Assembly: GCF_020782235.1 (NCBI RefSeq)
Contig: NZ_JAJGNO010000005.1
Location: 248,001 to 312,000 of the forward strand
Source: Sphingobium naphthae
GTDB taxonomy: Bacteria > Pseudomonadota > Alphaproteobacteria > Sphingomonadales > Sphingomonadaceae
Direction: 5' to 3'
Length of the DNA stretch: 64,000 nucleotides
Both the position numbers and the translations under genes were made by a program. Position 1 is the first letter of the stretch. Every line of letters starts with the position of its first letter. A model generated the notes under the pieces. That model was not told the DNA's origin and made no database searches. It saw only the letters and a list, made by a program, of their open reading frames with translations. Positions 50,096 through 63,322 of the stretch are shown piece after piece.

Positions 50096-50956
50096 GTGGA
50101 CGTGATGATGCCGGTCATACCGCTGCTGCTGACGTTCAGCCTGGCGCTGCTGGTGGTGGCCGCCGGCCTTGCCTCTTCGCGAGGAGATTTCACCTATGTC
50201 GTGAGCCGCCCGGCGCTGTTGCTGAAAGCCTTTGAAGCCATCATGCTCATTCCGGTGCTCACCGCGATGCTCGTCATCGGGTTCCTGCCCCTTTCGCCAG
50301 CGGTCAAGGCGGCGATCCTGCTGATGGCCTTTTCTCCGGTCCCGCCACTGATGCCGGGCAAAGCTCTGGAGACGGGCGGGCATAGCGCCTATGTCTATGG
50401 CCTGATGACGACCGGCGCGATCTTTGCCCTGGTCTTCGTGCCGATCCTCGGCGCTCTTGCTGCAAACTACTATCATGTCCACGCCCAGTTTCCGCTCGCC
50501 GTCGTGGCGCGCAATATTGCAGGCGGCGTGGTAATCCCGCTGGCCATCGGCCTCGCCCTCGGCCGCTGGCTGCTCAAGGATGTCGCGCCCCGGTTGACCA
50601 GGGGCATCACGATCCTGGCTCATGTGCTGCTGGTAGTCGCTGCCGTTCCGCTACTCGTCGGGGTCTGGCCGCAGATGATGATGCTGATTGGGGACGGCGC
50701 CGCCATGGCCATGGCGCTGGTGGTATTCGCCGCACTCGTCGGTGGCCATGTGCTGGGCGGAGACACCATCGCCGACCGCAGCTCCCTCGCCATCACCGCG
50801 TCGCTCCGTCACCCCGGCATTGCTCTCGCACTCGCGGGGGCCAATCATGCGGACAAAGCCGTGTCGGCGGCAGCTTTGCTGTTTCTCGTCATCGGCTTCC
50901 TGCTGCTCATTCCCTATCTGTTGCTGCTGCGCCTTCTGGTCACCACCGAGGCGTGA
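50096..50956 (+). CDS. BASS-like (bile acid:sodium symporter fold) transporter, copy 1
   Basis: 286 residues, about nine or ten hydrophobic segments. RHPGIALALAGANHA near the C-terminus resembles the conserved BASS family helix, and SPVPPLMPGKAL is another block. Start is the GTG at 50096; the second copy aligns from exactly this residue (MDVMMPVIPLLL against MEIIKQIIPLLL). BASS members move bile acids, pantoate, pyruvate or sulfonated and organic anions with Na+ or H+. The substrate is not known here. A hairpin follows its stop and a porin gene is next. Confidence 0.75.
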   Translation: MDVMMPVIPLLLTFSLALLVVAAGLASSRGDFTYVVSRPALLLKAFEAIMLIPVLTAMLVIGFLPLSPAVKAAILLMAFSPVPPLMPGKALETGGHSAYVYGLMTTGAIFALVFVPILGALAANYYHVHAQFPLAVVARNIAGGVVIPLAIGLALGRWLLKDVAPRLTRGITILAHVLLVVAAVPLLVGVWPQMMMLIGDGAAMAMALVVFAALVGGHVLGGDTIADRSSLAITASLRHPGIALALAGANHADKAVSAAALLFLVIGFLLLIPYLLLLRLLVTTEA

Positions 50957-50957
50957 T

Positions 50958-50981
50958 CCCCTTTGACGCGGTGCCAAGGGG
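50958..50981 (+). terminator. Short hairpin after first transporter
   Basis: CCCCTT and AAGGGG pair around a 12-base loop, starting two bases after the stop codon. No T run follows, so it is only a weak terminator candidate. Confidence 0.35.
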
Positions 50982-51195
50982 CGTCGACCCGGAGAAGGAT
51001 GCCGCAAAAAGCCCGATGGACCAAGGGGGAACCCTGATGGCTTTGAGAGCGAGAGGATCGGTAAGCGATGCAAGTGGAGCGAGTTGGGCGCGTAGCTGCG
51101 GTCGACCACGATGCGGCGTCCTTCATCCTCCATCGGTCAAGTCGTCTCTCAGCGCGCCTTGACCGGTGCCACGCCACGACGAGAAGAGGGGTTCG

Positions 51196-52620
51196 ATGCG
51201 GAGACGTCCTGACGTCTTGCGGGTTCACGACAAGAGGCCTGTTCGGCTGAGGGCTCGTTTCAGGGCAGGCCACGGCCTTGTGGCTGCGGGAATTTTCTTG
51301 GCAAGCGATCTGTCGGCGGCCGATGCTGAGGACGTTCTCGCGCTCCCTGCGCGAGCCCCAGATGGTCTGACCGTCCAGGGTCAGGTCCGGGCGCGGGCGG
51401 AGGGAATCGGGGGCCAGTTCCGCCCGGATGCGGCGGAGGAAGACCTCATGCTCTCGCTGAGGACGACGATCCAGGTCGAATATGACGGCGGCCATTGGCA
51501 AGTCGGAGGCGAATTGTGGGACTCCCGGGCTTATGGAGAGAGCGCCGATTCATCGGCAGGAACCGGCGAAGTCGACGCCTTGGCGTTGGTACAAGCCTAT
51601 GTCGGCTTCGACCTGGGGGGACAGGTTGACACGCATGTCACGGTCGGGCGCTTCACGATGAACCTGGGATCGCGGCGCTTGGTTGCCCGCCAGTCTTTCC
51701 GGAATACGACCAACGCCTTCACCGGCGTCAATCTTCAGTGGAGTGGTCCAGATGGAGATCAGGTGGCTCTGCTCTGGGCCATGCCCCAAATTCGCCTCCC
51801 CGACGATAGCGAAGACATTCGCGACAATGCGGTGCGGCGCGACAAGGAGACGAGCGACCTGCAATTTTATGGCGGCTCGCTGACCAAGACCGGCGTACTC
51901 GGGGGATCTCTGCAAATCTATGGCTTCGGCCTCAGCGAGCGCGACAGCGCGGAACGGCCGACCCGCAATCGCCATATCTTCACGCCCGGCCTACGCGCTC
52001 ACCGCAGCCCGAAGCAGGGCCAGCTGGACTATGATGTCGAGGGCGCCTATCAGTTCGGCCGCAGCCGCGCGACAAGCGCGCCGACAGACCTGACCGATCT
52101 CAACGTCTCCGCCTATTTCATTCATGCAGAGGCGGGCCGAACGTTCGATCACGGGTGGACGCCGCGACTGTCCATCGACTTCGATCTGGCGAGCGGCGAT
52201 GGGGCTTCGACCAAAGCCTATAACCGGTTCGACGCCCTGTTCGGAGCGCGGCGCTTCGATTTCGGACCGACGGGCCTGTATGGCGCGGTTGGCCGCTTCA
52301 ACATGATTTCGGGAGGCGCCAGGGTCGAAGTCAAGCCCGACAGGCAATCGGATGTCATGATGATGTATCGCGCGCTTTGGCTGCATTCCAGGACCGACAG
52401 CTTTTCCAACACGGGCGTCAGGGACGTGACTGGCAACAGCGGTCGCTTTGCAGGCAGTCAGTTCGAAGCACGCTATCGTCGCACGCTGATCCCTGGAAGG
52501 CTGCGCCTCGACATCGGCATGGCCTATCTCGACAAGGGACATTTCCTCAAGGCTGCGCCGAATGCCCCCCCAACCGGCGACACCAGATATGGGTATGTCG
52601 ATATCTATTTCGAATTCTGA
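51196..52620 (+). CDS. Alginate-export-family (AlgE-like) outer membrane porin
   Basis: 474 residues. An N-terminal Arg-rich start and hydrophobic segment (HGLVAAGIFLASDLSAADA) form a signal peptide. The mature part is a beta-barrel with alternating strands, an early LRTTIQVEYDGGHWQVGGELWDSRAY, VQAYVGFDLGG and LGSRRLVARQSFRNTTNAFTG, typical of the Alginate_exp family, and it ends with YVDIYFEF, an aromatic terminus. Such porins pass anionic solutes and are not always linked to alginate. I chose the ATG at 51196, with AGAGGGG ahead. It lies between the two transporter copies, suggesting a shared substrate. Confidence 0.75.
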   Translation: MRRRPDVLRVHDKRPVRLRARFRAGHGLVAAGIFLASDLSAADAEDVLALPARAPDGLTVQGQVRARAEGIGGQFRPDAAEEDLMLSLRTTIQVEYDGGHWQVGGELWDSRAYGESADSSAGTGEVDALALVQAYVGFDLGGQVDTHVTVGRFTMNLGSRRLVARQSFRNTTNAFTGVNLQWSGPDGDQVALLWAMPQIRLPDDSEDIRDNAVRRDKETSDLQFYGGSLTKTGVLGGSLQIYGFGLSERDSAERPTRNRHIFTPGLRAHRSPKQGQLDYDVEGAYQFGRSRATSAPTDLTDLNVSAYFIHAEAGRTFDHGWTPRLSIDFDLASGDGASTKAYNRFDALFGARRFDFGPTGLYGAVGRFNMISGGARVEVKPDRQSDVMMMYRALWLHSRTDSFSNTGVRDVTGNSGRFAGSQFEARYRRTLIPGRLRLDIGMAYLDKGHFLKAAPNAPPTGDTRYGYVDIYFEF

Positions 52621-52783
52621 GTCCAGCCGCACGCTCTCATCGGATCAGCAGTCCAGATCCGACTACGCGGCCGCCGCCAGGAATGGATGGAAACATTCCG
52701 GCGGCTCCGTGATTTCCCTGATCACAATTTCAGTAGCGGCAGGCGATCTTCCCGGCACGATAGTCAATCGATGAGGCTGGGCC

Positions 52784-53650
52784 ATGGAGATCATCAAACA
52801 GATCATACCCCTATTACTGACGATCAGCCTGGCGCTGTTCGTCGTCGCGGCGGGCTTGGCGTCGTCGCGCGGCGACTTCGCCTATGTCCTGCGCCGTCCC
52901 GGGCTGCTGCTGCGGGCCTTTGGCGCCATCATCGTTATCCCGATGGTGGCGGTCATGATCATCATCGCCATTTTCCCGCTCTCGCCATCGGCGAAGGCAG
53001 GGCTGCTGCTCATGGCGATCTCACCCGTTCCGCCGCTCATGCCGGGCAAGGCGCTCAAGGCTGGGGGCCACGCGCCCTATGTCTATGGGTTGATGGCCAC
53101 CGGAGCGGTCTTCGCCATCATCTTCGTGCCCATCCTGGGGACTTTCGCCGCCCGCTATTATGACGTCGATGCGCAATTTCCCGCCAGCATTGCGGCGCGC
53201 AACGTCTTCGTGGGCGTCGTGGTCCCGCTCGTCGTAGCCCTCGTCCTGGGCCGGCTCCTGTTCAAGGCGCCCAAGCCCAAGCTGACCAGGGCCGTGACCA
53301 TCGCCGCCTATGTGCTGCTCGTCCTGGCCGCCGTGCCGATCCTGATCAAGGTCTGGCCGCAGATGATGGCGCTGGTCGGCAATGGCACGCTGCTGGCGAT
53401 GGCTCTGGCTGCGGTCGCCGCGCTGCTGGGTGGACATTTTCTGGGGGGCGACAATGTCGCAGACCGCAGTTCGCTCGCGATCGCCGCTGCCATGCGCCAC
53501 CCCGGCATCGCGCTTGCACTGGCTGGCGCCAATCACGCCAACCAGGCTATCTCTGCTGCGGTGCTGCTCTTTCTGCTCATCGGATTTCTGGCGCTGATCC
53601 CCTATCAGATGATCGTGCGGCGACAGGCGATACCCGAGGATGAGGAATAA
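52784..53650 (+). CDS. BASS-like transporter, copy 2
   Basis: 288 residues, clearly paralogous to the gene at 50096. Shared blocks include LASSRGDF, SPVPPLMPGKAL, FVPILG, VWPQMM, LGGD-ADRSSLAI and RHPGIALALAGANHA. About ten membrane segments. It starts at an ATG 163 bases after the porin gene. Two copies flanking a porin suggest a duplication with the porin either inserted or carried along. Expected in the inner membrane, with a probable cation-coupled organic anion substrate (inference). Confidence 0.75.
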   Translation: MEIIKQIIPLLLTISLALFVVAAGLASSRGDFAYVLRRPGLLLRAFGAIIVIPMVAVMIIIAIFPLSPSAKAGLLLMAISPVPPLMPGKALKAGGHAPYVYGLMATGAVFAIIFVPILGTFAARYYDVDAQFPASIAARNVFVGVVVPLVVALVLGRLLFKAPKPKLTRAVTIAAYVLLVLAAVPILIKVWPQMMALVGNGTLLAMALAAVAALLGGHFLGGDNVADRSSLAIAAAMRHPGIALALAGANHANQAISAAVLLFLLIGFLALIPYQMIVRRQAIPEDEE

Positions 53651-54590: not shown

Positions 54591-55406
54591 ATGCCCGTCC
54601 CATCCTTCCCCGTGGCAGCCGCGGCCATGCTCCTTGTGGCGGGACAGCCGCTATCCCCATGGGCGCCATCCGCATGGGCGCGTCCCGATCAGGGAGCCGC
54701 GCCCACGCCGTCGACGGCGGCGCGGACGGCTGCGGATACGATCGACCCGGTCGCGATCCAGGCGCTGGTGGGGATGGGAAACTATCTCAGCACGCTGAAG
54801 AGTTTCGAGTTCCGCACGAAGGCGACGGCGGAGGCAAGCTTCCAGGATACCGACTTCCTCGTCCACCTTGGCTATGAAGCGACATACAAGGTCCTGCGGC
54901 CCACCGCCTTTTACGTGCAGATGAAGTCGGACCGTGCGATCCGCGAATATGTCTACGACGGCAAGACGCTGACCGTGAACGTGCCCCGGCAGAAATTCTA
55001 CGCGAAGGTCGCGGCGCCGCCGACGATCCGCCAGACGGTCGACAAGATCTACCTCGACTATGGCATCGACTTGCCGCTCGCCGACGTCTTCTACTGGTCC
55101 GAAAATCCGGTGACCGATGGCATCACGTCGGCCGTGCGGGTCGGCTTCGCGCGCGTGGACGGCAAGGAAGCGGACCAGTTCGCCTATCGCGGGGAAACGC
55201 TGGACTGGCAGATCTGGATCGCCCGCGGCAAGGCGCCGCTGCCACTGCGCATCGTCATCACCGACCGCAGCGACACGGTCCGCCCTTCATACAGCGCCGA
55301 TCTCTTCTGGAACACCACGCCCGCCCTCACCGCCAGGGACTTCGCCTTCGTGCCACCGGCGGATTCCAGCTTGATCGAGGTCGCTGCCCTTTCTGGAGAC
55401 AATTGA
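54591..55406 (+). CDS. DUF2092 exported protein, copy 1
   Basis: 271 residues with an N-terminal signal (AAAAMLLVAGQPLSPWA). The body is a DUF2092 domain, with IDPVAIQALVGMGNYLSTLKSF, YDGKTLTV, YGIDLPLADVFYW and WNTTPALTARDFAFVPP. The fold resembles LolA/LppX-like beta-barrels that bind lipoprotein or lipid tails, which would place it in the periplasm. The second copy is at 59710. AGGAG (54579-54583) precedes the ATG. The next gene starts one base after its stop. No function is established. Confidence 0.8.
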   Translation: MPVPSFPVAAAAMLLVAGQPLSPWAPSAWARPDQGAAPTPSTAARTAADTIDPVAIQALVGMGNYLSTLKSFEFRTKATAEASFQDTDFLVHLGYEATYKVLRPTAFYVQMKSDRAIREYVYDGKTLTVNVPRQKFYAKVAAPPTIRQTVDKIYLDYGIDLPLADVFYWSENPVTDGITSAVRVGFARVDGKEADQFAYRGETLDWQIWIARGKAPLPLRIVITDRSDTVRPSYSADLFWNTTPALTARDFAFVPPADSSLIEVAALSGDN

Positions 55407-55407
55407 G

Positions 55408-56142
55408 ATGAGCAACCGCAGCATCGGCTTCGTCGCACGACTGGCCGTCGCGCTGACTGCGACCGGCGCGATGACGGTTTCGGTCGAAGCTCAACGCCAT
55501 TTCGGCGGCGGCGGGCTGCGCGGCGGCGGCCTGCAGGGCCGCGCCAATTTCCACGCGCCCGGCAGCGGCGGCGGCGGCATCCGCAACCCGTCCATCCCCC
55601 GCGAAACGCCGTCGCCGCATCCCGGCGGTGGTGGCGACCGACCCGGCCCTCGCCCCGGACCTGGGCCTGAGCCGGGCCCCGGTCCCCAGCCCGGACCTGG
55701 TCCTCATCCCGGGCCCGGCCCGCATCCGGGCCCCGGGCCCCAACCTGGACCTGGGCCCCATCCCGGACCTGGACCTGGACCTGGACCTGGACCTGGACCT
55801 GGCCCGCATCCCGGACCGGGACCTCATCCTGGCCCTCCGCCGCCCCCGCCCCCTCCCGGCTGGGGGTGGGGCTGGAGCTGGTACGACGATCCGTTCTGGG
55901 ATGCGGCCGCCGTGGGCGTGGTCGCCGGTACGACCGCCGCCGTGGTGGCCAGCTCGTCCCAGTCATCAGCGACGCAGGTGGTGCAGAGCACCAGTGTCGG
56001 CTCGGTCGTCTACACCTTGCCTGCAAATTGCCCCCGGGTCGTTCGCGGAGATGTGACTTACTATAGTTGCAATAACATCTGGTATCGTCCGCAATATCAG
56101 TCCTCGGGCGTGACCTATGTAATCGTAAATCCGCCGGGGTGA
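55408..56142 (+). CDS. Pro-Gly-repeat exported protein with C-terminal C-x12-C/WYRPQY block
   Basis: 244 residues. A signal-like start (VARLAVALTATGAMTVSVEA) precedes Gly-rich and then long Pro-Gly-rich low-complexity sequence (about residues 72-150), encoded partly by a tandem hexamer. The C-terminal part has a WGWSWYDDPFWD segment, an Ala/Val hydrophobic stretch, two cysteines 12 apart and NIWYRPQYQ...YVIVNPP. The same ending occurs in the protein at 59108, each time next to a DUF2092 gene. The family resembles DUF6515-type surface proteins. It could be a cell-surface or wall-spanning rod. Function unknown. Confidence 0.72.
   Translation: MSNRSIGFVARLAVALTATGAMTVSVEAQRHFGGGGLRGGGLQGRANFHAPGSGGGGIRNPSIPRETPSPHPGGGGDRPGPRPGPGPEPGPGPQPGPGPHPGPGPHPGPGPQPGPGPHPGPGPGPGPGPGPGPHPGPGPHPGPPPPPPPPGWGWGWSWYDDPFWDAAAVGVVAGTTAAVVASSSQSSATQVVQSTSVGSVVYTLPANCPRVVRGDVTYYSCNNIWYRPQYQSSGVTYVIVNPPG
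55765..55800 (+). repeat. Six perfect copies of GGACCT in the Pro-Gly gene
   Basis: The 36 bases are exactly six in-phase repeats coding Gly-Pro six times (codon 120 onward), flanked by degenerate Gly-Pro repeats. Unit changes would keep the frame but vary length. Confidence 0.95.
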
Positions 56143-56301
56143 CGCCTGCAGGGGGGCAAGTCAGCGATTGACGACGGCTGATAAACGCTCCCGACCATCG
56201 CCTCGCTGCGCCGACGCGCGCGCACTTTCAGACCGCCGGAACATACATCTGGGGCCGTCCGCGACATCTTCCCCGACGCCCCGAACCGAAAGGACCAGCC
56301 G

Positions 56302-56673
56302 ATGGAAGATGTGCTGCATATCCTGGCCGAACATATTGCGCTTGGCGTCAACCTGCTCGGGATGCTGGCGATCACGATCGGGGCGATCCAGGGCGCGATC
56401 GGCCTGACCAGGCTGCTGCTCTTCCATGCCGACGAGGAGAAGCTCGGCCCGGTCTGGCTCGCACTCGGTCGCTGGCTGGTCGCTGGCCTGACGTTCCAAC
56501 TCGCCGCCGACATCGTCGAGACCACGATCGCCCCCTCCTGGGATGACATCGGCAAGTTGGCCGCCATCGCCGCGCTGAGGACCATGCTCAACTTCTTTCT
56601 GGACCGCGACATGGAAGGTCTGCGCGAGCGCATCGAACGGCGGGCGCGGGAAGAAGAAGCCATGCGCGCATGA
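56302..56673 (+). CDS. DUF1622 family membrane protein
   Basis: 123 residues with three to four hydrophobic segments (GVNLLGMLAITIGAIQGAIGL, LVAGLTFQLAADIVE, and a later one). An early LTRLLLF and the TTIAPSWDDIGKLAAIAALRTMLNFFLDRD block are typical of DUF1622. The C-terminus is a charged helix. No function is known for the family. It starts the membrane trio, with AAGGA ahead, and the next gene begins 27 bases later. Confidence 0.82.
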   Translation: MEDVLHILAEHIALGVNLLGMLAITIGAIQGAIGLTRLLLFHADEEKLGPVWLALGRWLVAGLTFQLAADIVETTIAPSWDDIGKLAAIAALRTMLNFFLDRDMEGLRERIERRAREEEAMRA

Positions 56674-56700
56674 CCCGCCGAAGCGCAAAGGAGACCTGTC

Positions 56701-57096
56701 TTGCCCACAAACGGAAAACGCCCCGCACCCCGTCCCAGCCTGCCCAGCGACCTGGGCGCGATCCGCACGATCTTGGCGGCCGATCGCACGCTGATGGCCT
56801 GGATCCGCACCGCCCTGTCGATGCTGAGCTTCGGCTTCACCATCTACAAGTTCCTCCAGGCCCTGGCGGACCATGGCCAGATCGCTCGCACCGATAGTCC
56901 CCAGCATGTCGGCATGTTCCTGGCTGCCGTCGGCACGGGCGCCATGCTCCTGGGAACCGCGAGCTATTGGATCACATTGCGCGAAGTCGCGACGGCGCAC
57001 CCGTTCCGCAGCTGGCGCCCGATCCTGCTGCTCGCCTTCGTCATGTCGCTGGCTGGCATGGCCCTGTTCGTCGCCATCGCCAAGCGCCTCGTCTGA
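56701..57096 (+). CDS. DUF202/YidH-type membrane protein
   Basis: 131 residues. LAADRTLMAWIRTALSMLSFGFTI is the hallmark of the YidH/DUF202 family, with three membrane segments in total. The start is a TTG at 56701, supported by an excellent AAAGGAGA at 56687-56694. Members are inner-membrane proteins of unknown role; some relatives pair with stress or transport operons. It is the middle gene of the trio. Confidence 0.85.
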   Translation: MPTNGKRPAPRPSLPSDLGAIRTILAADRTLMAWIRTALSMLSFGFTIYKFLQALADHGQIARTDSPQHVGMFLAAVGTGAMLLGTASYWITLREVATAHPFRSWRPILLLAFVMSLAGMALFVAIAKRLV

Positions 57097-57129
57097 GGCG
57101 CGCCTGAACCCTGCAATGGAGCCCTTGCC

Positions 57130-57993
57130 ATGGATGCGTCCAGTCCGCTTACCGCCCTGCCCGTCCTCCTTCTTGGAACGATCCTTCTCGTCATCGTGAT
57201 CGGCCTCACCTGGGCCGGCATGCGGATCAGGATGAAGGCGGCCGGACGCGCGCGCGCCGCCGCCGGACGGGCGGAGGACGTCGATGAGGAGGAGGATGCC
57301 AATGGCGCGATCGTATCGGCCGTCCTGGGATTGCTGGCGCTGCTGCTGGGCTTCACCTTCGCGCTGGCGGTCAACCGGTTCGAGACTCGCCGCGCGCTGG
57401 TGCTGGAAGAGGCCAATGCCATCGGCACGGCCTATCTCCAGACGCAGGTCCTGCCCCAGCCCCACCGCGAGCGGTTGAGCATGCTGCTGATCCGCTACAC
57501 GGATAACCGCGTGGTGCTGGCGCAGCAGGAAACGCCCGAAAGTCGCCGTCAGCGGCTGGCCGACAACGACCGGATCGTCAACGACATCTGGGCCGCGACC
57601 CTGGCCGGGTTCGACAGCATCAAGCATCTGGACATGTCTAACGCCCTCGTCTCCTCGGTCAATGCGGTGATCGATATGGACACGTCGCGCAAGGCCGGTC
57701 GCATGACGCATGTCCCGGAGGAAGTCTTCTGGGTTCTCATCGTCTACGTCCTCGTCGCCGCCGCGATCATCGGCTATATCGTTCGCTCCCGATCGAACTT
57801 CCATCTCGCCTGCGTCATGCATGTCCTCATCGTCATGTCGCTCATGCTGATCATCGACATCGACCGGCCAGCCGCAGGTGGAATCCGGGAGTCGCAATAT
57901 CCGATGGAATTGCTCAGCGCGTCCATGCATGCGCAGCCGCGCGCCGCCTATGATCGGTGGCGGACCCTGGTCGCTCCTCCTCCAATGGAGTAG
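57130..57993 (+). CDS. Bestrophin-like DUF4239 membrane protein
   Basis: 287 residues. An N-terminal membrane segment (LPVLLLGTILLVIVIGLTWAG) is followed by an acidic loop, a second segment (VSAVLGLLALLLGFTFALAVNRFETRR) and two late membrane segments. The FALAVNRFETRRALVLEEANAIGTAYLQ stretch is the bestrophin-like DUF4239 pattern. A channel role is suggested by the family's name only. The third gene of the trio, 33 bases after the DUF202 gene. Confidence 0.78.
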   Translation: MDASSPLTALPVLLLGTILLVIVIGLTWAGMRIRMKAAGRARAAAGRAEDVDEEEDANGAIVSAVLGLLALLLGFTFALAVNRFETRRALVLEEANAIGTAYLQTQVLPQPHRERLSMLLIRYTDNRVVLAQQETPESRRQRLADNDRIVNDIWAATLAGFDSIKHLDMSNALVSSVNAVIDMDTSRKAGRMTHVPEEVFWVLIVYVLVAAAIIGYIVRSRSNFHLACVMHVLIVMSLMLIIDIDRPAAGGIRESQYPMELLSASMHAQPRAAYDRWRTLVAPPPME

Positions 57994-58171
57994 GGGATAA
58001 CCCGAAAGACTATTCAGGGTCGGTCCCGATACCAGCTTTGCGCGCCTGCCATATCCTTCGACAAGGCTTCAGGAGGTCGCCCATCGCGCCTCATGCCGAA
58101 GCTGCCTTTCGCCGGTCACAGGCACTCGACCGTCACGTGTGCCTCTGGCCGGCCTCGCACAGGAGCAGACC

Positions 58172-59035
58172 ATGGACTCCCCGATTTCCCAACTGGTTTC
58201 GGCCCCCCGTTGCCGCCTGGTCCTGCTGACAGGCGCCTGCGCGGCGGCCGCGCTCAGTCCGCCGGCGGGCGCACAGACGCTGGACAATGACTATTGGATC
58301 AGCGCCATGGCCTTTTTCCCGCGCATCGATACCGACGTCCGCGTGTCCTCCGATACTCCGTCGGTGCCTGGCGCCGAAATTGGAACGGACATCGATTTCG
58401 AGAAAGACCTGGCGCTGGACCGGGGCGAGGTCCTGCCGTCCTTCAATGCCGGCGCCCGGTTCGGCAAGGTGATCGTCGGCGCTGATTTCTACAAGCTCCA
58501 GCGCCGTGGCGAGACCAGTCTCAGTCGCGACATCAGCTTCGACGGTGTCATCTATCCGGCCAATGTCGAAGTCGAAAGCGGCTTCGACAGCGAAATTTAC
58601 CGCCTTACCGTCGGCTACGCCCTGGTCCAGAAACCGAACCTGGAACTCGGCGTGGCGATCGGCGCCCATGTCACTCGGTTCGAAATGTCGCTGAGCGGTC
58701 TGGCGTCGCTGGGCGGGGAGGCCGCACAGACGGAGGTGCGCCGTCGCGACGCGCTGGCCCCGCTCCCGACGATTGGCGCTTTCGGCACGTGGAAAGTCGC
58801 GCCCCGGGTGGAACTGAATGGCCGGTTCGACTGGCTCTCGCTGGAGATCGACGACTATGACGGCCGCCTGCTCAATGCTCAGGTCGGCGCCAATTATCTG
58901 GTGACGAAGAATATCGCCGTGGGCGTGGCCTATCGCTATGTCGACTATCGCCTGGGGATCGAGAAGGACCGCTGGGACGGTCTGGTTCGCTACAAGCTTT
59001 ATGGCCCGGCCATCCTGCTTCAGGCCTCATTCTGA
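58172..59035 (+). CDS. Outer membrane beta-barrel protein
   Basis: 287 residues with a signal peptide (CRLVLLTGACAAAALSPPAGA). The mature chain alternates strands and ends with an aromatic residue (YGPAILLQASF), the usual barrel terminus. Strand patterns such as VGANYLVTKNIAVGVAYRYVDYRLG are typical of small outer-membrane barrels. No closer family was recognised. AGGAG at 58161-58165 precedes the ATG at 58172. A 14-bp terminator hairpin follows its stop, between it and the convergent 59108 gene. Confidence 0.75.
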   Translation: MDSPISQLVSAPRCRLVLLTGACAAAALSPPAGAQTLDNDYWISAMAFFPRIDTDVRVSSDTPSVPGAEIGTDIDFEKDLALDRGEVLPSFNAGARFGKVIVGADFYKLQRRGETSLSRDISFDGVIYPANVEVESGFDSEIYRLTVGYALVQKPNLELGVAIGAHVTRFEMSLSGLASLGGEAAQTEVRRRDALAPLPTIGAFGTWKVAPRVELNGRFDWLSLEIDDYDGRLLNAQVGANYLVTKNIAVGVAYRYVDYRLGIEKDRWDGLVRYKLYGPAILLQASF

Positions 59036-59056
59036 CGCTTGAGGGCAGGCACGAGA

Positions 59057-59088
59057 AAAGGCGGCGGTTCGTTCGAACCGCCGCCTTT
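59057..59088. terminator. Bidirectional-type terminator hairpin
   Basis: AAAGGCGGCGGTTC (57-70) pairs perfectly with GAACCGCCGCCTTT (75-88) around GTTC. A-rich on the left and T-rich on the right, it suits both the barrel gene and the convergent 59108 gene. Confidence 0.8.
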
Positions 59089-59107
59089 CGCTTTGTGGAC
59101 TGGAGCC

Positions 59108-59713
59108 TCAGCGCGGCGGGTTCACCACCACATATTGGACGGACGATCCGACATATTGCGGCTGATACCAGGTGTTGCCGCATTGCGAATAGCTGATGCC
59201 GTTGACCACGGTGGTCGTGCAGCTGGGCGGGACGCTGCGCACGATCGAGCCGACCACCGCCGCCGTGGTCGCGGCAACGGCCATTGTGGCTACGGGATGC
59301 CAGTGATCGTCCCAGTCGTCCCAATCGTCATGATAATAGCCGCCGCCGTGATAATCGTTATGGACGTTCACGTTGACGTCCCGATTGACGTCGCGGTTCA
59401 CGTTGCGATTGACATTGCGGTTGCGATTGCGATCGACATTGTGGTTGATGTTGGTCGAGGCGCCCGATCGCACCTGCGGCCTGCTTGCCGCAGCATGATG
59501 GCCTCCGCCAGCCGGTCGCGAACGCTGGGCGCCACCCGATGGCCGCCGCCCGCCACCTTGCGCGAACGCCGCATACTGCTCTCCACCATAGGCAGGGGCA
59601 TCGCGCTGGTCTGGCGAGAAGGGCCGGCTCAAGGCGGGATCGGGAAGGATCTGCGCCGCCCCGCAGGCGAGAGCCGCCGCCAGAGCCAGTGGCATGCGAA
59701 CCGAGATGGTCAT
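59108..59713 (-). CDS. Asn/Arg/Val-repeat exported protein with C-terminal C-x12-C/WYQPQY block
   Basis: 201 residues. A signal peptide (PLALAAALACGAAQ) leads to a Gly/Arg-rich region, then Asn-Arg-Val repeats such as NRNVNRNVNRDVNRDVNV (about residues 87-120), an Asp/His/Tyr-rich patch (DDWDDWDDHW), a hydrophobic Ala/Val segment and the shared C-terminus with two cysteines 12 apart and NTWYQPQYVGSS..YVVVNPP. The ending matches the protein at 55408, and both follow a DUF2092 gene. Its start overlaps the DUF2092 stop by 4 bases. Function unknown. Confidence 0.72.
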   Translation of the reverse strand: MTISVRMPLALAAALACGAAQILPDPALSRPFSPDQRDAPAYGGEQYAAFAQGGGRRPSGGAQRSRPAGGGHHAAASRPQVRSGASTNINHNVDRNRNRNVNRNVNRDVNRDVNVNVHNDYHGGGYYHDDWDDWDDHWHPVATMAVAATTAAVVGSIVRSVPPSCTTTVVNGISYSQCGNTWYQPQYVGSSVQYVVVNPPR

Positions 59714-60543
59714 TGTCCTTCTCCCTCATTGGCGTTCGCGCCATCCGCGCCATTGCTCGCATCGTCCCCCAGGCTCGCCAGGGTGATGCGCTGCGCATCG
59801 GGCGGGGGTGCGAAGGCAAGGTCGGCGGCGGCCGGTGTCGCTTGGGTGTCCCAGTGTAGCACCGCGGTATATTGCGGCATGGCGGGATCATCCTTGTTGG
59901 TGATCACCATCTTGCAGGGCAGCGGACGCGCGCCCTCCTCTATCCAGAGCTGCCAGTCCACCCTCTCCTGCCGGAAGGCCAGGTGCAGGCACTTGCGATC
60001 GCCGATCGTTTCGGGCCGCACCACCAGCGCGCCCTGCACGCGCGAGCGCAGCGTCTGATCGGTGCCCCAGGTGAACAGGTCGGCCAGCGGCAGTTCGATG
60101 CCATATTCGCGCCGGGCCTTGTCGATCGTCAGCCCGATTGACGACGCTGCCGGAAAGCTGGCATAATAGCCTGATCGGGGGGAGAAGATCGTGAAGGCCT
60201 TGCCGTCATAATACATCTCTCGATGCTGGATGTCGGATTGGGTGACGATCTTGAAGGCATTGGGTCGTTTGGCCAGAATGTCGAAGGTTCCGCCGAACTG
60301 GATCTTCTGCCCGGTCATCAGCACTTGCTCGGTGGACGCTTCGCCGGTGATGCGGAACGCGCCGAGCGTGAGCAGATAGGCGCTCATCTTGTCCATCGCC
60401 TGCATGGCGGCGGGGTCCATGGAGGCGGCAACCTCCTCCGCCGTCTGCGCGAAAGCAGGCCCCGCCGCGGCGAGTGGCAGGCATAGCGCCGCCGCCAGCA
60501 GCGTCGATCTTGGTCTGAAGCCGCGTGAACCCGAACATGCCAT
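59710..60543 (-). CDS. DUF2092 exported protein, copy 2
   Basis: 277 residues with a signal peptide (STLLAAALCLPLAAAGPAFA). Shared with copy 1 at 54591 are the MDPAAMQAMDKMSAYL opening, YDGKAFTIF, YGIELPLADLFTW and the WD-x-x-A-T-x-A-A-D-L-A-F-x-P-P ending. It is probably periplasmic. GGGAGAA precedes the ATG. The next gene, 59108-59713, overlaps it by 4 bases. The two-gene module is thus a diverged, inverted copy of the one at 54591-56142. Function unknown. Confidence 0.8.
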   Translation of the reverse strand: MACSGSRGFRPRSTLLAAALCLPLAAAGPAFAQTAEEVAASMDPAAMQAMDKMSAYLLTLGAFRITGEASTEQVLMTGQKIQFGGTFDILAKRPNAFKIVTQSDIQHREMYYDGKAFTIFSPRSGYYASFPAASSIGLTIDKARREYGIELPLADLFTWGTDQTLRSRVQGALVVRPETIGDRKCLHLAFRQERVDWQLWIEEGARPLPCKMVITNKDDPAMPQYTAVLHWDTQATPAAADLAFAPPPDAQRITLASLGDDASNGADGANANEGEGQ

Positions 60544-61000
60544 GAGGTTTCTCCCTTGGAAAAATCGGCACGACTATCGATCCGGACGTGGCCGGGCCCC
60601 ATCGGGATTAGTGCCGAGTTCGCCGGGAAATGATCCTCTGTGAAGCGGACCCTGCCGTCCTTGCGACGCGCCGACCCGTTTCATGTCCCCATTGGACTGT
60701 CGAACACAGAGCGCGCGCATGCCTGCGCGCAGGCGCAGCGATGCTCGTCGTTACGCCACCGAACGCACACAGGCCGCTGCACGAGCACCATTCTCAGGAA
60801 AACGGCGCGCCCTTCCTCGGGTGAGTCCCGATGGCGTCCGGTTGGCGATCGGTCCATCCCAAGGACGTCATGCGCCACGGAGCCCCTGAACTCTTCCTGG
60901 CGCATCACGCCCGTCTGCGCCCTGCCTTCGTCAAGACCGCGCCGTCCTCCGTCGGCCCAAGGGGCGTTTCGTAACCTGACTCGTGCCAAGGAGACATGTT
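60544..61000. other. 457-base divergent spacer upstream of the arylsulfatase
   Basis: Between the divergent DUF2092 copy 2 and arylsulfatase genes. The short frames here lack family resemblance or credible start sites. It must hold both promoters, but I could not fix a clear -35/-10 pair. Confidence 0.5.
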
Positions 61001-63322
61001 GTGTCCCAACAGGAATTCAAAGGCGTCATCAAGCTGGATATCCGGGATTCCAAAGCGGATTGGGAACCCTTCCTGCCGCCGCGCGCCCCCGAAGGCGCAC
61101 CGAATGTTCTGATCATTCTGTACGATGACACTGGCCAGGCGGCCTGGCAGCCCTATGGCGGCGCGATCAACATGCCGACCCTTCAAAAGCTCGCCGACAA
61201 TGGGCTGACCTATACGCAGTGGCACACCACCGCGCTCTGCTCGCCCACGCGTTCCTGTTTCCTGACGGGGCGCAACCATCATCTCAATGGCATGTCCTGC
61301 ATCACCGAAGCGTCCAACGGCTTTCCCGGGTGGAGCGGCCGCATCCCCGAAAACTGCATGACGATCGGCCAGATGCTTCAGGATAACGGGTACAGCACCT
61401 TCTGGCTGGGCAAGGATCATAACGTGCCGGAGCCCGACATCTGCTCGGGCGGCCCCAAGTCGGAATGGCCGTTGCAGAAGGGCTTCGACCGCTATTACGG
61501 TTTTCTCGGCGGGGAGACCAACAACTGGTATCCCGACCTTGCCGAGGACAACAAGTTCATCGACCAGCCCTATCTGCCCGAGGACGGCTATCACTTGTCC
61601 AAGGACCTGGTGGATCAGGGCATGCAGATGATCCGCGACCAGAAGGCCAGCAATCCCTCCAAGCCCTGGTTCATGTGGCTGTGCCCCGGCGCCAACCACG
61701 CGCCGCATCATGCGCCCAAGGAATATGCCGACAGGTACAAGGGCAAGTTTGACGAGGGGTATGACGCCTATCGCAAATGGGTGGTGCCCCGGATGATCGA
61801 GAAGGGCATGCTGCCGGCCGATACCAAGCTGGAGGATTTCAACCCCCTCCCCGAGGACCAGGCCAATCCCGGCGATTTTGTGCGCCCCTGGGACGAGCTC
61901 AACGCCGAGGAAAAGCAGCTCTTCTCCCGCATGGCGGAAGTCTATGCCGGCTTTTCGGAATATACCGACGAACAGGTCGGGCGCCTGATCGACTATCTCG
62001 AACAGAGCGGCCAGCTGGACAACACCATCATCCTCTACTGCTCCGACAACGGCGCGTCAGGCGAAGGCGGCCCGAACGGTTCGGTCAACGAAAACAAGTT
62101 CTTCAACAACTATCCGGACTCGCTGGAAGAAAATCTCAAATATCTGGACGTCCTGGGCGGGCCGGAGACTTATAACCACTACCCCACCGGCTGGGCAGCG
62201 GCCTTTTCGGCGCCCTACAAGATGTTCAAGCGCTACTCGGAATATGCCGGCGGCACCGCCTGCCCGATGATCATTTCGTGGCCCAAGGGCATCAAGGCTC
62301 GGGGCGAGGTCCGTAACCAGTACCACCATGCGGTGGACCTGGTGCCGACCCTGCTGGAATGCATCGGCATCGACATGCCGGAGACCTTCCGCGGCGTGAA
62401 GCAACATCCGCTCTCCGGCGTTTCGATGAAGTACAGCTTCGATGCGGATGGCGACACGCGCAAGAAGCGCCAATATTATGCGATGCTCGGCACGCGCGGC
62501 ATCTGGGAAAATGGCTGGAAGGCCGCGGCGATCCACGCTCCGCTGACCGGCAAGGGCAATTTCGACAAGGACGAGTGGGAACTCTACCATGTCGACGAGG
62601 ACCGTTCGGAATCGATCGATCTGGCCAAGGAGCATCCCGAGAAGCTGGAAGCGCTGATCAAGGCCTGGTTCGAAGAGGCCGACGCCAACAATGTGCTGCC
62701 CCTCGACGACCGGAGCGCCGCCGAAGTGCTGGGGACCGAGCGTCCCTCCACCGAGGCGCCGCGTGAACGCTACCTCTACTATCCCGGCACCGCGCCGGTT
62801 CCGGAGGGCGTGGCGGTCAATGTGCGCGGACGTTCGTACAAGATCATCGCTGATGTCGAGATCACCGACACGACCGAAGGCGTGATCTTCGCCCATGGGT
62901 CGCGCTTCGGCGGGCACGCGCTGTTCATCAAGGATGGCAAGCTGCACTATGTCTACAACTTCCTTGGCATCAAGCCGGAGCAGAAATTCTCGTCCGACAA
63001 GCTCACCCCCGGCAAATATGCGCTGGGCATGGAGTTCATTCGCGAGAAGACGGGCGAATATGGCGAAGCGCTGGGCAAGACGACGCTCTACGTCAATGAG
63101 GAGGCCGTCGATTCGGGCGACATGAAGACCCAGATGGGCAAGTTCACGCTGTCCGGAGACGGACTATGCATCGGACGCGACAGCGGCGATGCGGTAAGCG
63201 AGGAATATAGCTCGCCTGGCGAGTTCCGGAACGGCCATATCTACGGCGTCGGCGTCTCGGTCGAGAAAAAACAATATTTCGATCTGGAAAAGCTCGCCGC
63301 CGCGGCGATGGCGGTGGACTGA
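61001..63322 (+). CDS. Type I arylsulfatase (formylglycine type)
   Basis: 773 residues. The FGly signature is C80-S-P-T-R84 in ALCSPTRSCFLTGR. Metal ligands are Asp42 and Asp43 in LYDDTG, with a later LYCSDNGASGEGG loop and KDHN. It closely resembles the large AtsA-like arylsulfatases. A C-terminal region of about 180 residues (from GRSYKIIADVEI) looks like a LamG/concanavalin-type beta sandwich. There is no signal peptide, so it should act in the cytoplasm. Start is a GTG at 61001 with AAGGAG ahead at 60988; an upstream GTG at 60983 is less likely. It releases sulfate from sulfate esters. A formylglycine-generating enzyme is needed from elsewhere. Confidence 0.93.
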   Translation: MSQQEFKGVIKLDIRDSKADWEPFLPPRAPEGAPNVLIILYDDTGQAAWQPYGGAINMPTLQKLADNGLTYTQWHTTALCSPTRSCFLTGRNHHLNGMSCITEASNGFPGWSGRIPENCMTIGQMLQDNGYSTFWLGKDHNVPEPDICSGGPKSEWPLQKGFDRYYGFLGGETNNWYPDLAEDNKFIDQPYLPEDGYHLSKDLVDQGMQMIRDQKASNPSKPWFMWLCPGANHAPHHAPKEYADRYKGKFDEGYDAYRKWVVPRMIEKGMLPADTKLEDFNPLPEDQANPGDFVRPWDELNAEEKQLFSRMAEVYAGFSEYTDEQVGRLIDYLEQSGQLDNTIILYCSDNGASGEGGPNGSVNENKFFNNYPDSLEENLKYLDVLGGPETYNHYPTGWAAAFSAPYKMFKRYSEYAGGTACPMIISWPKGIKARGEVRNQYHHAVDLVPTLLECIGIDMPETFRGVKQHPLSGVSMKYSFDADGDTRKKRQYYAMLGTRGIWENGWKAAAIHAPLTGKGNFDKDEWELYHVDEDRSESIDLAKEHPEKLEALIKAWFEEADANNVLPLDDRSAAEVLGTERPSTEAPRERYLYYPGTAPVPEGVAVNVRGRSYKIIADVEITDTTEGVIFAHGSRFGGHALFIKDGKLHYVYNFLGIKPEQKFSSDKLTPGKYALGMEFIREKTGEYGEALGKTTLYVNEEAVDSGDMKTQMGKFTLSGDGLCIGRDSGDAVSEEYSSPGEFRNGHIYGVGVSVEKKQYFDLEKLAAAAMAVD

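Follow-up and report, generated by a model that had tools for sequence, protein, structure and literature searches.

A gene for a DUF2092 protein and the small exported partner encoded directly behind it form one two-gene unit, as their near-obligate adjacency, tight coupling and co-inheritance show at the level of sequence. The pair occurs twice in the window, by which we mean the whole 64,000-nucleotide stretch of Sphingobium naphthae analysed here (assembly GCF_020782235.1, contig NZ_JAJGNO010000005.1, positions 248,001 to 312,000). The two convergent modules lie at 54591-56142 (+ strand) and 60543-59108 (- strand). The module spans Alpha-, Beta- and Gammaproteobacteria, Myxococcus and a cyanobacterial plasmid, and it clusters with sulfatases and SBF-type symporters, an association that is new here. 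Two families of unknown function thus become a single testable unit.

The open reading frames and Pfam matches confirm an earlier reading of the window made from its letters alone (hereafter the first-pass annotation), which had reported DUF2092 followed by a low-complexity exported protein twice, on opposite strands. The features of the two modules are as follows.

54591-55406, + strand: DUF2092 protein A, 271 residues, LolA-like, exported (PF09865, E 6.8e-55)
55408-56142, + strand: partner A, 244 residues, identified from its sequence (PF20125, 20.7 bits, under the cut-off)
55609-55860, + strand: Pro-Gly spacer of partner A, read directly, bounds approximate
56029-56070, + strand: C208 to C221 of partner A, 12 residues between them
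59710-60543, - strand: DUF2092 protein B, 277 residues, LolA-like, exported (PF09865, E 1.7e-63)
59108-59713, - strand: partner B, 201 residues (PF20125, 29.6 bits, over the cut-off)
59357-59452, - strand: Asn-Arg-Val spacer of partner B, read directly, bounds approximate
59180-59221, - strand: C165 to C178 of partner B, 12 residues between them
59710-59713, - strand: ATGA overlap of the DUF2092 B stop and the partner B start

Both DUF2092 proteins match PF09865 over model positions 1-211 of 212, with 186.2 and 214.3 bits against a cut-off of 21.2. Partner A is laid out as a signal peptide, a Gly-rich stretch, the Pro-Gly spacer, a hydrophobic Ala/Val/Gly segment and a C-x12-C domain, and partner B as a signal peptide, the Asn-Arg-Val spacer, a hydrophobic segment and a C-x12-C domain. 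WY-x-PQY and NPP are present in both, so that the shared ends and differing middles described earlier can be read directly in the two proteins. The matches to PF20125 (DUF6515; cut-off 24.9 bits) cover the C-terminal part of that model only, and NCBIfam gave no useful match for any of the four module proteins. At the junction of module A a single nucleotide separates stop and start (TGA-G-ATG, 55404-55410); from the 4-nucleotide overlap in module B we infer translational coupling.

The window's genome (4.28 Mb, 48 contigs) contains two DUF2092 and two DUF6515-type matches, all of them in the two modules; no further match to either family was found in it, with DUF6515 searched to E values of up to 1. 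The two DUF2092 copies are 36% identical and belong to different clades. The nearest relative of copy A is a protein of Novosphingobium sp. PhB57 that is 76% identical to it (L193; L and G numbers are our labels for loci and genomes), and that of copy B is L018. The label "inverted, duplicated" given to the modules is therefore true of their orientation and not of their origin, and a recent inverted duplication is ruled out by the low identity and by nearest relatives that lie in other genomes. The window holds two modules of different lineage, possibly for different cargo.

Adjacency was counted in several sets of genomes. The named-genome set comprises 80 of 102 relatives, retrieved with a scan pattern that lies within DUF2092 and favours one DUF2092 branch; the partner was thus not selected for. 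It lies downstream on the same strand at 76 of these 80 loci, and the rest (L081, L094, L095, L096) reach a contig end. Across 199 genomes of the same family, DUF2092 occurs in 11, the window's own counted, at 14 loci. Ten of the 14 have the partner directly downstream, including the two window loci (seven recognised by pattern, three by eye). Two more are cut at a contig end, each where a protein with a fitting signal peptide starts; L005 is followed by a short-type exported protein without cysteines, and L011 is a truncated, rearranged DUF2092 without a partner. In this sample the module is not common to the genus, as the three other listed genomes of it lack DUF2092.

In a phylum sample of 398 genomes, DUF2092 was matched in 27. 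Strong matches (E < 1e-30) number 20 and come from 17 genomes, the window's two included; the 10 genomes whose matches are all short and weak (E 4e-6 to 9e-4) were left out. A profile search at E ≤ 1 found a partner, in some cases a weak match, at 12 of the 18 strong loci besides the window's, and L112 lies at a contig edge. At L107, L108, L109, L111 and L114 we found a short exported protein with C-terminal cysteines and the motif GRPLTPxSxAGVARR, recognised by eye. Pooling the sets and removing repeat loci gave 126 DUF2092 rows, reduced to 114 by setting aside seven duplicates and five fragments; two DUF2092 fragments, G199:C10 and G209:C6, stand outside the counts. A downstream partner was identified by profile or motif in 107 of the 114, with weak matches (L120 and L121 among them, at E about 0.002) counted as paired, and five rows reach contig ends. 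The last two are L201, whose cysteine-less partner was recognised on reading, and L204, with a truncated partner-like frame downstream and a complete one upstream. Eight extra copies comprise five with a C-x12-C partner, two with a short GRPLTP-type partner without cysteines (L217, L218) and one followed by a small exported protein (L214). In total, an exported partner lies immediately behind 115 of 122 non-redundant DUF2092 genes; five genes lie at contig ends and two are unclear (L204, L214). Seen from the DUF2092 side, the families do not occur apart in most genomes.

The spacing of the two genes is similarly constrained. In 106 of 110 rows (near-copies included, window rows excluded) the first ATG of the partner falls within 30 nucleotides of the DUF2092 stop, and 26 of these are 4-nucleotide overlaps. 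DUF2092 is also matched in 139 plasmid records, of which five were examined. The partner is present on four: those of Leptolyngbya, Paracoccus (with a Pro-Gly spacer; not in any tree), Sinorhizobium meliloti (short type, C-x12-C) and Thiodictyon (divergent, without C-x12-C).

Protein distances between DUF2092 proteins correlate with those between the ends of their partners (r 0.88 for 97 pairs without the short-type partners, where permutations reach at most 0.29), and the value for distant pairs alone is 0.71. Since adjacent co-inherited genes would give the same correlation, it argues for a single unit and not for contact. In genomes with several modules, a partner is mostly closest to the partner of the nearest foreign DUF2092 and not to its own paralogue; the pairs of G139 and G336 show no clear separation of partner from paralogue. 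Together with the linkage counts, this co-inheritance strongly supports the matched pair that the first-pass annotation had proposed.

Several variations on the arrangement were seen along the way. Novosphingobium sp. BW1 has a shortened DUF2092 and a partner in a single open frame (L027, 167-1393), perhaps the result of a deletion, of gene fusion or of faulty assembly. On the plasmid of Leptolyngbya sp. BL0902, a tandem pair of spacerless C-x12-C partner genes follows a single DUF2092 (L206, 4697-5404). Accumulibacter sp. HK-STAS-PROT-102 carries two full modules in direct tandem (L048, 5895-8997), and a 43 kb contig of Accumulibacter necessarius (L198/L199) holds three DUF2092 genes, a short DUF2092-like fragment and two interspersed sulfatases. 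Four modules occur in Novosphingobium sp. AP12 (L025, L211, L212, L213), two with Asn-Val and two with Pro-Gly spacers; a gene for formylglycine-generating enzyme (FGE) lies close to both of the latter. The plasmid records matching DUF2092 are mostly from Sinorhizobium or Rhizobium, and archaeal DUF2092 is present among the control matches.

The partner's most constant feature is its pair of cysteines. Both are invariant across 75 aligned partners, and C-x12-C stands at the C-terminus in 94 of 107 scored partners; L121 keeps the spacing ahead of an added domain. The remainder show spacings of 13, 9, 6 or 4 or have lost both cysteines, as in five of the 107 (L005, the second copy of L032, L196, L197 and L199) and also in L201, L217 and L218. 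No partner with a single cysteine left was seen among the 107. That the two are kept, shifted or lost as a pair fits a predicted disulfide and shows that not every partner needs one. A strongly hydrophobic N-terminal stretch is present in 105 of 107 partners and a lipobox-like motif in 1 of 107, in a simple scan from the first ATG. The first-pass annotation's description of the partner as a surface protein is not borne out by these counts, and the one homologue with a peptidoglycan-binding domain points to the periplasm. In that homologue (L121, 1985-3517), PG_binding_1 (E 4.4e-14) follows the partner's cysteine domain; L111 (910-2193) has an OmpA domain (E 2.5e-20) ahead of DUF2092 in a single frame. 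These single cases are hints that place the module near the cell wall. At the other extreme, the shortest partners of L108, L111 and L114 have 62-70 residues including the signal peptide. The smallest of all, L217 (6779-7022) and L218 (6742-6964; both in strand coordinates), consist of a signal peptide and GRPLTPVSYAGVARR, with neither cysteines nor spacer. L215 combines the GRPLTPVSYAGVARR motif and the cysteine domain within one protein.

A model of partner B reaches a predicted local distance difference test score (pLDDT) of 90 in 44 of 176 residues, C-terminal and comprising four strands. Against the PDB, this domain gave a best Foldseek E of 1.0 and a best profile E of 0.49 (a 20-residue chain), and VIA comparison of residues 123-174 (model m78e2c78b6132) gave at best Z 2.7, to phage IF1 g3p, which is too weak. 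With 44 confident residues and no PDB match, a new fold is not shown. In a reciprocal search, a profile of the partner's last 64 residues was run against the 398-genome phylum sample, with up to 15 candidates scored per genome, and gave at least 36 matches in 29 genomes. All 10 matches with E < 1e-12 fall in DUF2092 genomes, nine adjoining DUF2092 and the tenth (G495) on another contig. Of the weaker matches, 26 in all (E 3e-10 to 7e-4), a single one adjoins DUF2092 (G445) and another is found away from it in a DUF2092 genome; the other 24 are in genomes without a strong DUF2092 match. The cysteine domain is therefore part of a wider superfamily whose close form goes with DUF2092. The partner resembles DUF6515 in its C-terminal C-x12-C region, and the Leptolyngbya partner is annotated "DUF6515 family protein". 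It differs in that partner A falls under the cut-off, the spacers and N-terminal parts lie outside the match, and DUF6515-like domains also occur without DUF2092.

For DUF2092 itself, an AlphaFold2 model of protein B (pLDDT 88.9, predicted template-modelling score 0.83; protein A entered the alignment only) was compared with the PDB. Foldseek found LolA at E 6.5e-11. In VIA comparisons the LolA-type structure 4mxt scored Z 15.9 (root-mean-square deviation 3.1, 178 residues aligned), followed by RseB (Z 14.5), MucB (13.7), LppX (13.1) and LprG (11.5). One LolA-like domain spans model residues 10-224, and residues 228-244 are disordered; over the domain, the model places DUF2092 in the LolA/LolB/RseB fold superfamily. 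The relation to LolA is already in print, having been proposed in 2015 (PMC4520260), and the alignment in that paper reports the hydrophobic cavity partly kept in DUF2092 and an Arg conserved. DUF2092 thus shares with LolA, LprG and LppX a fold, and is likewise exported and single-domain. It differs from LolA in sequence, with about 10-13% identity in structural alignments and a DUF2092 profile that reaches LolA only at E 0.34, and in being encoded with a small exported partner, whereas LolA stands alone. As to the periplasmic LolA-like carrier of the first-pass annotation, the likeness holds up, and the carrier role is suggested by the modelled fold only; fold alone cannot tell a carrier from a sensor.

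The low-complexity spacers, swapped between conserved ends, offer a natural experiment. Partner types were labelled with our own regular expressions, which left 8 rows as "other". On the tree of 114 DUF2092 proteins these labels need 18 changes, compared with 40.9 when shuffled. Pro-Gly spacers need three changes on this tree; two suffice on a 47-row tree to which the Pro-Gly copies L211, L213 and L216 were added (bootstrap 2-3). Three Pro-Gly origins are accordingly withdrawn, the 47-row tree requiring two (the Sphingomonadales lineage and G336). At least two origins are needed, one of them shown by sister copies in G336, and the Sphingomonadales lineage, window module A included, may have a single one. 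The best evidence of spacer exchange comes from G336, in which a Pro-Gly copy appears as sister to an Asn-Val copy of the same genome (support 100/97 and 99/96). These sister copies and the variety of spacers agree with the exchangeable spacer of the first-pass annotation. G336 belongs to another class than the window's genome and also has two convergent modules with a sulfatase and FGE alongside. Because its copies are mutual sisters, this convergent arrangement beside sulfatases arose separately from the window's. Short partners have no spacer, which is thus not essential to the pair. Tandem-repeat spacers of the Gly-Gly-Ser-x-Glu-His or Ala-Ser-Trp-Ser types (L200, L201, L204) are a further spacer kind.

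Neighbouring genes were counted at 50 loci, almost all of them covering some 6 kb to either side, using our own profiles for local genes and Pfam for the background. PF00884-type sulfatases occur at 11 of the 50 loci, where 0.86 would be expected from the 349 present across the 50 genomes, alkyl-sulfatases at 3 against 0.14 expected, and SBF symporters at 10 against 0.32 expected (130 PF01758 matches). FGE is present at 6 loci; a sulfatase, alkyl-sulfatase or FGE is present at 18. Sulfatase neighbours were found in 8 of 24 hand-assigned genera. Among 21 further module stretches, 8 have a sulfatase, with L198 and L203 being repeats of counted loci; the new cases are G107, G168, G139, G336 and the second modules of G209 and G210. 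Of the eight extra stretches, one has a sulfatase (L215) and two have FGE. The genes of the Leptolyngbya plasmid run from SBF through a barrel-like protein, DUF2092, two successive partners and a membrane protein to a sulfatase. Bile acids and steroid sulfates are among the substrates of SBF relatives. As a lead only, one paper reports an arylsulfatase of Caenibius tardaugens raised on cholate (PMC12882949). Known sulfatase/SBF clusters resemble these surroundings in that PF00884 or PF14863 sulfatases, FGE, SBF and outer-membrane barrels flank the module, but no described cluster of such make-up, and no description of the DUF2092-partner pair, was found in open-licence PubMed Central papers, outside which most subscription papers lie. 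The first-pass annotation had likewise known of no description of the pair; it missed the sulfatase/SBF context, the short partners with no spacer or no cysteines, and the broader DUF6515-like superfamily that occurs apart from DUF2092.

In the window the following neighbours were identified.

50096-50956, + strand: SBF (bile acid:sodium symporter) protein (PF01758, E 9.1e-10)
51166-52620, + strand: Alginate_exp-type outer-membrane barrel (PF13372, E 3.2e-48)
52784-53650, + strand: second SBF protein (PF01758, E 4e-8)
56302-56673, + strand: DUF1622 membrane protein, a recurrent neighbour (PF07784; 11/80 loci)
56701-57096, + strand: DUF202 membrane protein, a recurrent neighbour (PF02656; 11/80 loci)
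57130-57993, + strand: Bestrophin-like membrane protein (PF14023, E 3.1e-19; 4/80 loci)
58139-59035, + strand: outer-membrane beta-barrel-like protein (PF13505, 27.9 bits, slightly under the cut-off)
60983-63322, + strand: sulfatase with a CSPTR motif (PF00884, E 2.6e-63, 214.6 bits)

The sulfatase is of type I (S1), having both the PF00884 match and the C-x-P-x-R formylglycine motif, and is homologous to solved arylsulfatases (PDB 4cxk, best, E 7.2e-67; 1hdh, E 4e-65). In PMC5066984, 1hdh is given as P. aeruginosa AtsA, of sulfatase subfamily S1_4. Two of the three sulfatases and two of the three SBF genes in the window's genome are found no more than 7 kb from the modules, and its FGE is located apart from them, beside the third sulfatase. 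The Alginate_exp-type barrel sits between the two SBF genes (50096-53650), upstream of module A, and has homologues at none of the 80 loci. Homologues of the barrel-like protein at 58139-59035 are found at 13 of 80 loci, and it is recurrent in Sphingomonadales. A single comparison of the window barrel with the barrel-like protein of Leptolyngbya gave E 0.006, which is not usable.

Tentatively, and at somewhat less than even confidence, we favour a periplasmic relay for amphipathic, often sulfated, molecules, composed of the LolA-fold DUF2092 and a docking and anchoring partner. The LolA-like cavity would hold the hydrophobic part of the molecule in the periplasm. The partner would dock on DUF2092, in most lineages through its disulfide-stapled end, while its hydrophobic segment touches the membrane or oligomerises. 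The spacer may set the reach across periplasm or cell wall, which would leave it free to be exchanged or lost. For some of the genomes a sulfated amphiphile (an aryl, alkyl or steroid-like sulfate) is the probable cargo; it would enter by an outer-membrane barrel, pass to an SBF-type sodium symporter and be desulfated by the neighbouring sulfatase. The boldest version, a widespread relay in which the LolA fold serves import and not export, moving amphipathic organosulfates from barrel to SBF with the spacer as an independently evolving adapter of length or wall crossing, is rather unlikely as a whole. The pair hints that LolA-like folds do more than sort lipoproteins, and offers a candidate periplasmic step by which sulfated amphiphiles, for example detergents or steroid sulfates, could be taken up.

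Several observations weigh against this relay. At 32 of the 50 loci neither a sulfatase nor an alkyl-sulfatase nor FGE lies within about 6 kb, so sulfate esters can explain only part of the picture, and relatives among the counted loci make Poisson values overstate the association. No common function was found among the other neighbours: 110 of 196 genes from 40 loci mostly without sulfatase (predicted with a simple gene finder of our own, some possibly spurious; known sulfatase and some SBF genes left out) matched 114 families, none dominant. The window sulfatase has no evident signal peptide on direct reading, so that its action would have to follow import. Since some partners lack the cysteines, a disulfide cannot be the general means of docking. 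There is also one clear counterexample to the pairing itself, the plasmid of Eleftheria, on which a Ysc84-family protein stands behind DUF2092 in place of a partner.

The main alternative is a dedicated chaperone with its own client, which we consider somewhat unlikely. DUF2092 would be a LolA for one protein, shielding the partner's hydrophobic segment in transit and delivering the partner, as the working part, to the outer membrane or cell wall; the sulfatase genes would be one kind of customer. Near-obligate pairing with coupled translation and the LolA fold suit this explanation, as does the hydrophobic Ala/Val or Gly-zipper-like segment recognised by eye in spacer-bearing partners. The shortest partners (L108, L111, L114, L217, L218) are nevertheless paired although no hydrophobic segment follows their signal peptide, and by motif the partners are not lipoproteins.

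An envelope sensor, in which DUF2092 binds lipid or misfolded protein like RseB/MucB and signals through the partner, is improbable. RseB and MucB score nearly as high as LolA, they too combine a LolA-like domain with a genetically linked partner (RseA/MucA), and LuxR-type regulators are the commonest class among the 110 neighbours (7 Response_reg, 6 GerE), with a response-regulator cluster at 13 of 80 loci. However, DUF2092 lacks the second RseB domain, and the small exported partner has, on direct reading, no cytoplasmic part after its signal peptide and, at E up to 1, no Pfam match to an anti-sigma family; no sigma or anti-sigma factor appears among the 25 families listed of the 114 found for the neighbours. 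That the pair instead serves secretion or surface display of the sulfatase itself would explain the sulfatase and FGE neighbours, but is very improbable given a window sulfatase without a visible signal peptide, two unrelated sulfatase types (formylglycine and metallo-lactamase) adjoining the module, and most modules having no sulfatase nearby.

Other conserved neighbours include clusters c11 and c15 (e.g. L023, 4843-5787, and L060, 8884-10074), each at 8 of 80 loci, whose examples have no Pfam match; c15 often adjoins sulfatase and HAD genes. On pSymA, the symbiosis plasmid of Sinorhizobium meliloti, a DUF1254 gene follows the module (L209, 5077-6627).

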